Below are positions 43,033-44,610 of a stretch of 64,000 nucleotides of DNA, one piece after another. Location of the stretch: positions 124,001 through 188,000 of the forward strand of contig JASCOH010000005.1 in assembly GCA_029959295.1 (NCBI GenBank). Direction: 5' to 3'. Source of the stretch: Flavobacteriaceae bacterium PS02334 (lineage in GTDB: Bacteria > Bacteroidota > Bacteroidia > Flavobacteriales > Flavobacteriaceae). The first letter of the stretch is position 1. Each line of letters begins with the position of its first letter. Made by a program: the position numbers and the translations under genes. The notes below the pieces were generated by a model, which did no database searches, was not told where the DNA came from, and saw only the letters and a program-made list of their open reading frames with translations.

Positions 43033-43767
43033 ATGAAAAACAAATCTTACATCGGAATTTCTTTTATAATTCTAGTTTTCGGAATCTATGCTATTCCAAA
43101 AATAATAGATAGATTCCAAAATGGTGATGTCGTAAAACAAGATCGTTTGAATTCTGGAATCACTTCAGAAAAAGAACCCCACGTCAATTTGACGACAATC
43201 GGTAAAGCTCCAAAATTTAGCCTTACGGATCAAAACGGAAAAACAGTCACGAATGAAGATTATGCCGGAAAAGTATATGTGGTGGAATTTTTCTTTTCTA
43301 CTTGTCCTTCAATCTGTCCGATCATGAATGAAAATATGTTGTTAATCGAAAAGGAATTCGGAACGCATAAAAACTTTGGAATTGCTTCTTTTACTATCAA
43401 TCCAGAATATGATACGCCAGAAGTTTTGAAAAATCATGCCAAGCAATTAGGAGTAACTTCTCCGAATTGGCATTTTTTGACTGGAGATCAAAAGTATATT
43501 TATGAGCTTGCAAACAAAGGTTTTAATATTTATGCAGGAGAAAGTAAAAAAGACGGCGATGCTGGTTTTGAGCATTCAGGATATTTTGCTTTGGTGGATA
43601 AAAAAGGAAATATTAGAAGCAGAAAAGACAAATCAGGAAACCCAATTATCTTTTATACAGGCTTGAATTATGACGATAAAGAAGGTTTTAAAGACAATTT
43701 GGAAGGCAAGTACAAGCCTGGAATTTTTGCAATCAAAGAGGATATTTCAATTTTATTAGAAGAATAA
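43033..43767 (+). CDS. SCO1/SenC-family copper chaperone
   Basis: A 244-residue protein with an N-terminal anchor (residues 6-22). The thioredoxin-like domain has the copper site CPSIC (Cys91 and Cys95) and the conserved His in GFEHSGYFALVDKKGNIR. SCO proteins deliver copper to the CuA site of subunit II, which is coxB at the left end of the window. Preceding residues KAPKFSLTDQNGKTVTNEDYAGKVYVVEFFF are typical. Followed after 5 bp by the DUF420 gene. Confidence 0.95.
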   Translation: MKNKSYIGISFIILVFGIYAIPKIIDRFQNGDVVKQDRLNSGITSEKEPHVNLTTIGKAPKFSLTDQNGKTVTNEDYAGKVYVVEFFFSTCPSICPIMNENMLLIEKEFGTHKNFGIASFTINPEYDTPEVLKNHAKQLGVTSPNWHFLTGDQKYIYELANKGFNIYAGESKKDGDAGFEHSGYFALVDKKGNIRSRKDKSGNPIIFYTGLNYDDKEGFKDNLEGKYKPGIFAIKEDISILLEE

Positions 43768-43772
43768 TCAGA

Positions 43773-44321
43773 ATGGAAAATAATTTAAACGCTGTTGAGC
43801 TAAAATATAGAAAGTGGATTATTGTTTTGTCAATAGTAATTCCGGTTGCTGTGGCAATTCTTTTTGGTGTCAAGCTGAAAGATTTTGGCTATGATGTAAA
43901 ACCTTTGTCATTTCTTCCTCCAATTTATGCCACAATAAACGGAATTACAGCGGTACTTTTGGTTACTGCAGTTTGGGCTGTGAAAAACGGAAAGTTAAAG
44001 GTTCACGAAAATTTAATGAAATGTGCGATTGGATGTTCAGTTGCTTTTTTGGTAATGTACGTTGCTTATCACATGACGGCAGACAGCACGCCTTTTGGCG
44101 GTGAAGGAATCATTAAATATGTGTATTTCTTTATTTTGCTGACCCATATTTTGTTGTCGATTATTATCATTCCTTTTGTTTTGATAACGTATGTCAGAGC
44201 TTTGGCAGAACGTTTTGACAAGCACAGAAAATTGGCCAGAATCACTTATCCGATGTGGCTTTATGTTGCTGTAACTGGCGTAATTGTTTACCTAATGATC
44301 TCTCCTTATTATGTACATTAG
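43773..44321 (+). CDS. DUF420 membrane protein, oxidase-linked
   Basis: A 182-residue protein with five spans. DVKPLSFLPPIYATINGITAVLL, KVHENLMKCAIGCSVAFLVMYVAYH, THILLSIIIIPFVLITYVRAL and KHRKLARITYPMWLYVAVTGVIVYLMI fit DUF420 (CtaM/YozB-like). The related Gram-positive protein CtaM is needed for aa3-type oxidase assembly, so a like role is probable here. The conserved His residues in spans 2 and 3 could take part in heme or copper handling. Its end overlaps the upstream possible start of the next gene by 11 bp. Confidence 0.92.
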   Translation: MENNLNAVELKYRKWIIVLSIVIPVAVAILFGVKLKDFGYDVKPLSFLPPIYATINGITAVLLVTAVWAVKNGKLKVHENLMKCAIGCSVAFLVMYVAYHMTADSTPFGGEGIIKYVYFFILLTHILLSIIIIPFVLITYVRALAERFDKHRKLARITYPMWLYVAVTGVIVYLMISPYYVH

Positions 44322-44610
44322 AAAAGAAAATAGGCAAGAGGCAAGAGGCAAGAGCTTGGAGAAAAGAAGCAAGAAGCAAGAAGCAAGAAACAAGATATTT
44401 ATGCTTTTTGCCTCTTGCCTCTTGCCTCTTGCCTCTCTTAATGCACAATGCGCAATGTGCCGTGCGGCTTTAGAAACAGAAGAAGGCGGTGTAAAAGGCG
44501 AAGCTGTCAATGACGGAATCCTTTACCTGATGGTGATTCCTTATCTTTTAGTTGGAATTTTAGGCTTTGCGATTTACAGAATGTATTTCAAGAAAAAGAA
44601 GGCGCAATAA
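44311..44610 (+). CDS. Small CxxC membrane protein with repeat-encoded signal peptide
   Basis: Up to 99 residues. Two starts are possible: ATG 44311, overlapping the DUF420 gene, or ATG 44401, giving 69 residues. With the later start the protein begins MLFASCLLPLASLNAQ, a short signal peptide made almost wholly from a 7-bp DNA repeat. The mature part CAMCRAALETEEGG has a CxxC pair at its N-terminus. A single span (ILYLMVIPYLLVGILGFAIY) follows, with a basic end. It is conserved next to DUF420 in relatives, from memory. A redox, heme or copper role in oxidase assembly is likely but unproven. Confidence 0.7.
   Translation: MYIRKENRQEARGKSLEKRSKKQEARNKIFMLFASCLLPLASLNAQCAMCRAALETEEGGVKGEAVNDGILYLMVIPYLLVGILGFAIYRMYFKKKKAQ
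44332..44435. repeat. Heptamer repeat with 23-bp perfect inverted arms inside a gene
   Basis: Left part: three GGCAAGA units (44333-44353), then degenerate GAAGCAA/GAAACAA units (about 44364-44395). Right part: four exact TTGCCTC units (44408-44435). Bases 44332-44354 and 44412-44434 are perfect reverse complements over 23 positions, so a long hairpin can form. It overlaps the 5' end of the small CxxC gene. Confidence 0.9.

Follow-up and report, generated by a model that had tools for sequence, protein, structure and literature searches.

Heptamer repeat arrays as putative signal-peptide code at a recurrent gene junction of Flavobacterium

Cyanobacterial STRR sequences are dispersed tandem units of 7 nt, of the same kind as the heptamer repeats of Xanthomonas and Nostoc. 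Rickettsia palindromic elements are dispersed non-coding repeats that stand in frame inside genes. The same is described for the enterobacterial RU elements (Delihas 2007, PMC2759123), and in the accessible part of that source the RU and Rickettsia elements have a fixed sequence, measure 103-168 bp and are single cases. The Xanthomonas and Nostoc heptamers, as far as the available text of their description goes, are 7-nt tandem units dispersed genome-wide and mostly at gene ends, within 50 bp after a stop codon on the coding strand and before a start codon on the non-coding strand; their units are rich in G, are under-represented in coding regions and have been discussed as formers of quadruplexes (PMC4692102). 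Excerpts of further reports describe the P6b stem-loop of the Nostoc trnL intron, a 7-nt-repeat hairpin whose repeat classes were repeatedly swapped among relatives (PMC4476775), the TAACTGA heptamer direct repeats of Beggiatoaceae, which lie mostly just 5' of start codons and occur in five Bacteroidetes too (PMC4679880), and coding palindromes in the mitochondria of Nematomorpha (PMC6649704).

The Flavobacterium arrays analysed here resemble the Xanthomonas and Nostoc heptamers, as portrayed in the available text (PMC4692102), in being dispersed 7-nt units that follow the same strand rule, but differ from them in that, at one junction, many units substitute for one another and are translated. 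They share with P6b a heptamer hairpin at a fixed place and the repeated replacement of classes; according to the same excerpt (PMC4476775), however, P6b is a structural RNA with two motif classes, whereas the Flavobacterium segment is coding, uses many units and does not always keep the pairing. Unlike the RU and Rickettsia elements, the arrays vary in their unit and recur at one junction in dozens of species; and while TAACTGA is, in the excerpt available, one fixed and mostly intergenic unit (PMC4679880), the units of the junction arrays vary and are coding. Among the matches listed by a literature search, with most subscription papers outside its scope, none described heptamer-coded signal peptides or the present Flavobacterium arrays. 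We consider it probable that dispersed heptamer elements, together with local slippage, repeatedly overwrote the signal peptide of one small gene in Flavobacterium.

The small CxxC protein gene and its arrays

The window (the whole 64,000-nt stretch of DNA analysed) contains the following features of the gene and its surroundings.

43033..43767, + strand: SCO1/SenC gene of the same cluster (Pfam PF02630, E 2.6e-30)
43773..44321, + strand: DUF420 (CtaM-type) gene (Pfam PF04238, E 3.2e-47)
44311..44610, + strand: small CxxC membrane protein gene, 99 aa (ORF, translation and orthologues)
44311..44321, + strand: overlap of the start codon of the small gene with the end of the DUF420 gene (ORFs 43773-44321 and 44311-44610)
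44311-44445, + strand: putative signal region of the same 99-aa gene, with the conserved QCAMCR domain from 44446
44332..44354, + strand: purine-rich run of the heptamer AGGCAAG, an exact period-7 run forming part of the n-region code and encoding RQEARGK
44364..44389, + strand: second purine-rich run, AAGAAGC, an exact period-7 run of n-region code that encodes KKQEARS and continues in degenerate form to 44395
44408..44436, + strand: pyrimidine-rich array of TTGCCTC, 4.1 perfect copies (TRF score 58; exact run)

The 99-aa ORF reads MYIRKENRQEARGKSLEKRSKKQEARNKIFMLFASCLLPLASLNA, continues with QCAMCRAAL... and has a second hydrophobic stretch further on. A preliminary description of this DNA had placed the TTGCCTC units inside the gene, reading as FASCLLPLAS, and on this TRF and the translation agree: the array encodes that peptide, which makes up most of the hydrophobic core, and LNAQC comes next. 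Furthermore, TRF assigns the purine-rich region 44334-44395 a period of 7 with 77% matches. In the translation, the 15-residue core has a hydropathy of 1.73 and the n-region a net charge of +7. Signal peptidase typically wants small residues at -3 and -1, and L at -3 is atypical. The clean end at NAQ that had been described stands only in part: the presumed cut A|Q has A at -1 but L at -3. Export of the small protein is suggested by the make-up of the segment and by the conserved domain that follows it.

Upstream of the small gene, the cluster comprises a UbiA prenyltransferase gene, two COX3-type genes, one unassigned gene, SCO1 and DUF420. In the available part of PMC9145763, DUF420 is identified as CtaM, which is required for cytochrome oxidase in Staphylococcus and Bacillus. 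The small protein scored above the cut-off for no Pfam or NCBIfam family; its CxxC and its position beside SCO1 and CtaM make an uncharacterised oxidase-assembly factor possible. Its QCAMCRAAL...NDGI domain (44446-44607) is strongly conserved, with 25 of 54 columns invariant in an alignment of 8 sequences.

Heptamer arrays at the orthologous junctions

The comparison covered 109 loci with the small gene, namely the window, 28 of 29 loci from relatives and 80 loci obtained by scanning 84,980 species genomes (the best 80 of at least 575 relatives); L032, whose stretch lacks the small gene, was left out of the counts. By junction we mean the DNA between the DUF420 stop and the conserved QCAM(CR); 108 of the 109 junctions are distinct (L013 and L041 being identical). 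DUF420 lies directly 5' of the small gene at all 109 loci, and the junctions range from 60 to 151 nt in length.

Arrays of 7-nt units recur at this one junction, with many different units and with the reading frame kept. At a score of at least 12, they are present in 49 of the 108 distinct junctions (0.3 expected) and absent from the other 59, while the counts at periods 5, 6, 8, 9, 10 and 11 are 0, 1, 0, 0, 0 and 0. Mere low complexity was rejected in view of the absence of excess at these other periods. Self-matching at lags of 7, 14 and 21 nt amounts to 0.471, 0.455 and 0.392, against 0.353, 0.345 and 0.324 after local shuffling of the same 108 junctions; the rise at lag 6 is smaller (0.388 against 0.355). 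Among the best 80 of the at least 575 relatives, 31 exact runs fall within 130 bp before QCAM (in 26 of the 80 loci), as compared to 3 in the remaining 471 kb of those loci. The background is 26 arrays in 1.51 Mb from four genomes, focal places excluded, from which we infer an array density at the junction more than two orders of magnitude higher.

The 26 perfect focal runs of at least 21 nt comprise 19 distinct units. Tandem heptamers at the individual loci include AAAAGGG and CTATTGC (L045, L046), AAAGAGC (L049), AAAGTCG (L061, L095), AAGAGCC and TTCTTGC (L063), AAAGCCA (L066, L086) and TTCTTTG (L080), and the longest perfect arrays reach 41 nt (L080). The tandem unit in the window and in the other array-bearing junctions is exactly 7 nt, as in STRR-like dispersed repeats. 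Other orthologues carry plain and short signals (among them L031, L035, L042, L079, L088, L106 and L114), and the heptamer-coded junctions use units other than that of the window. The earlier claim is borne out in so far as the repeat lies in the gene and supplies what looks like its signal-peptide code, as judged by the array translation in the window and by the heptamer-coded orthologous junctions.

An assembly artefact at the repeat may be practically discounted. The window does come from a draft assembly of 69 contigs; nevertheless, the arrays are short and lie within a 374-kb contig, and the single-contig genomes G051 and G036 have comparable arrays at the same junction (L010, L019). Two of the loci (L071, L072), of the Flavobacterium type, come from metagenome bins that carry the titles Bdellovibrio sp. 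ZAP7 and Rhizobium sp. Q54 and are probably mislabelled or misbinned. The 151-nt junction of L012 (G031) has an insert-like stretch, TTGCTTCGCCAATTCGCTAACGCTCGGGTC, between its heptamer arms.

The segment turns over between relatives. On a quick tree of the flanking proteins (28 of 105 inner branches open), the presence of arrays changes at least 28 times, and among the nearest tree relatives of the window are the array-free L037 and L042 as well as L036, whose array differs. L046 and L048 have flanking proteins that are 98.8% identical and junctions of equal length, and yet their units differ and their junctions are only 63% identical; the L046 junction is common to L045 (99%). Similarly, L044 and L023 (96.8%) set a 100-nt array type against a 60-nt plain type in which the start is shifted. 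Both differences look like block replacement of the segment. A single old insertion followed by slow drift is rejected, in view of these changes and of segments that differ between relatives whose flanking proteins are 97-99% identical.

Pairing and reading frame

The purine-rich and pyrimidine-rich parts of the window gene form the best inverted repeat.

44327..44354, + strand: 5' arm of the best inverted repeat (partner 44412-44439)
44412..44439, + strand: 3' arm of the best inverted repeat (partner 44327-44354)

An upstream inverted set able to pair over 23 bases had been described; it does pair, but over a slightly longer 28 nt (93% complementarity, arms 57 nt apart), and the purine side consists of two runs instead of one. 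The RNA fold of 44291-44470 reaches -72.8 kcal/mol (z -7.36; 0 of 200 dinucleotide shuffles as good), and with the purine and pyrimidine parts shuffled apart the z of -5.70 is the lowest among the 109 junctions. These values favour a regulatory hairpin, whose arms would fold in the mRNA just past the start codon and set the translation level or coupling, as does the finding that the fold exceeds the make-up of both parts (z < -2) in 21 of the 109 junctions and that none lies above +2. Against it, the mean z is only -0.99, many array-bearing junctions show no excess fold (L010 -0.28, L061 +0.25, L080 -0.99), the arms are absent from plain orthologues, and the start codon of the window gene (44311), which overlaps the DUF420 stop, sits outside the main helix. 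The hairpin therefore covers the start region only roughly, in partial agreement with the preliminary description, and we hold such regulation to be improbable. Control of translation as a general function of the hairpin is not upheld, and a conserved regulatory hairpin as a general rule was rejected, the pairing not being kept across orthologues.

A phase-variable start had also been put forward for the repeat. In a contingency locus of this kind, gain or loss of one 7-nt unit would shift the frame and switch the protein on or off; a unit length that is not a multiple of 3 and perfect arrays as long as the 41 nt of L080 speak for it. Between species, however, 100 of the 109 junctions have an ATG that overlaps the DUF420 stop and from which the frame stays open as far as QCAM, and an in-frame start codon lies further down in the other 9, which leaves phase variation very unlikely and the earlier suggestion unsupported.

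Because 7 equals 1 modulo 3, all three frames of a perfect array are rotations of one cyclic 7-residue peptide, and the arms in the window read alike in every frame, except for one stop at the edge of the first purine arm. Not one of the 26 perfect focal runs contains a stop within its cycle; at an assumed 65% AT, the share expected by chance would be 0.61 for purine-rich units and 0.14 for pyrimidine-rich ones. The purine units have a mean hydropathy of -2.23 and a net charge of +2.19 per 7 residues (16 units, range -3.93 to -0.21), and the pyrimidine units (10 units) a mean hydropathy of +2.32, as against +0.68 for random stop-free pyrimidine-rich units. For selection against a matching pyrimidine arm where it would code for charged residues, the counts pointed in the expected direction (0 of 5 focal places against 7 of 19 dispersed ones) but fell short of significance (p 0.27).

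Dispersed copies and the source of the arrays

Several units are dispersed in Flavobacterium genomes. Arrays of AAAGTCG have matches in 10 of the 18 genomes searched, non-focal in 9 of them, while the reversed control gave none; G102 has matches at the focal place only, and G110 has 34 matches (3 focal and 31 non-focal). AAATTCC arrays occur in 5 of 23 genomes, chiefly in G115, G116 and G006, whose junctions are of the AAATTCC type, and also in G118 (5 matches) and G100 (1 match), both with other junction types; the reversed control gave 2 matches in G000. CTATTGC was found in 4 of 23 and in 7 of 334 genomes (controls none), and the unit of the window in 15 of 398 genomes, including its own (reversed control 2). 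STRR-like repeats have one unit at many places of a genome; AAAGTCG and AAATTCC do so in other genomes, and the unit of the window does not in its own.

The non-focal places of three units amount to 45 distinct ones, of which 30 are intergenic and 15 lie within an ORF called by a simple caller, several of these right at the ORF start. Among the intergenic places, 26 of 30 are at most 100 nt from a gene end, and 21 of these 26 follow the orientation rule, with the purine strand after a stop or the pyrimidine strand before a start (p 0.0025). In a small sample not selected by unit, the rule holds for 8 of 9 by the nearest gene end (p 0.048) and for 9 of 13 if gene ends on both sides, up to 100 nt away, enter the count. 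The dispersed places are in this respect STRR-like, mostly intergenic at gene ends and with a strand rule, while the focal array itself is coding. At the dispersed AAAGTCG places, a matching pyrimidine arm lies 3' in 7 of 19 and 5' in none of 19. A MITE or a Rickettsia-type palindromic element of fixed sequence is rejected, as the loci share only arrays of a changing unit. AAAGTCG arrays also stand inside conserved-gene ORFs that are left open, in L152 (G047, 811 aa), L166 (G109) and L155 (G111, 273 aa). We take the L152 ORF to be leuS-like and the L166 ORF to be prmC-like.

The window genome has one AAAGTCG element with a pyrimidine arm elsewhere (L157), and a copy of the window's own array was sought there as its source in vain: neither TTGCCTCTTGCCTC nor CAAGANNCAAGANNCAAGA has an exact match elsewhere in the 4.59-Mb genome, where the unit occurs at this site only. 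AGAGCMA was likewise found at two focal places only, and nowhere else, in 23 genomes. The unit of the window and AGAGCMA, found at the focal place only in the genomes searched, count against a dispersed source for both. They favour purely local slippage, in which purine-rich n-region code and pyrimidine-rich core code would slip by 7 nt and arrays would form on the spot in each lineage, with no dispersed element involved, and so does the frequent difference of only one base between the units of neighbours (by eye). Nevertheless, AAAGTCG, AAATTCC and CTATTGC are dispersed within the same genomes, close relatives differ in whole segments, and the junctions show no excess at periods 5, 6 and 8-11; slippage on its own is therefore a rather unlikely, if serious, alternative. 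As the unit of the window occurs nowhere else in its own genome, the last step there was probably local amplification, or else the donor has been lost.

The reading that we prefer, that of dispersed heptamer elements combined with local slippage, would proceed as follows. Heptamer elements may settle at tight gene junctions, with purine-rich heptamers placed just after the upstream stop and pyrimidine-rich ones ahead of the following coding stretch. As the small gene begins at the DUF420 stop, both arms are translated; the purine arm would become a basic, hydrophilic n-region and the pyrimidine arm a hydrophobic core. The purine-then-pyrimidine order matches that of a signal peptide, which would make capture easy and leave selection to keep the frame, and since a perfect array gives the same peptide in all frames, only the array ends must restore it. 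Later changes of unit would come from new invasion, from the exchange of whole blocks between relatives and from slippage in place, with stops and frame loss presumably removed by selection. Several observations count against this reading: 59 of the 108 junctions have no array at the threshold used, AAATTCC is dispersed in G118 despite the other junction type there, the reversed control of that unit has matches in G000, the orientation sample not selected by unit is small, and the presumed cut has L at -3.

Apparently heptamer-coded signal regions are also present in two unrelated genes. Of the 16 distinct other places fetched for the unit of the window, 2 appear to be signal regions in these genes. 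L234 encodes a TonB-dependent receptor, with the putative signal region ...ILCFLASCLLPLASFSQ, and L238, which follows a uvrC-like gene, encodes a patatin-Omp85 protein, with the putative signal region ...VIAYCLLPIASKAQ. CTATTGC stands at 13 distinct places in 7 genomes, of which 2 are at the focal gene and 3 at the patatin gene (one being L238 again). Arrays with four different units were found in the 170 nt before the domain in 5 of 21 patatin loci, 2 of the 5 having been known beforehand; 30 loci had been fetched and 21 were motif-matched, and the 9 unmatched ones were left out of the counts. We tentatively suggest that heptamer hairpin elements could be a frame-blind source of signal peptides in Flavobacterium, from which unrelated exported families repeatedly swap signals as from a shared pool.

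The junction provides a replicated natural series of more than 100 loci, in which repeats of a non-coding type came to be apparently working code and were swapped repeatedly, so that the origin of targeting sequences becomes directly testable. Purine/pyrimidine order and a unit length of 7 would be a simple reason for easy capture. Heptamer repeats seem to have become, time after time, the export tag of this small respiratory-cluster protein and now and then of unrelated ones, and would thereby illustrate a route from non-coding repeats to protein code. Low-complexity 5' ends of Flavobacterium genes may, by the same token, be real code.

Two further sets of arrays were observed. One Flavobacterium genome, G219, has long mixed GCAAGAG and GCAATAG arrays (12 and 20 matches; L240, L252, L265-L267). 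CTATTGC arrays precede a DUF58 gene in three genomes (L247 in G361, L248 in G153 and L253 in G129); this junction is a second recurrent site, where the arrays are not translated as a signal.
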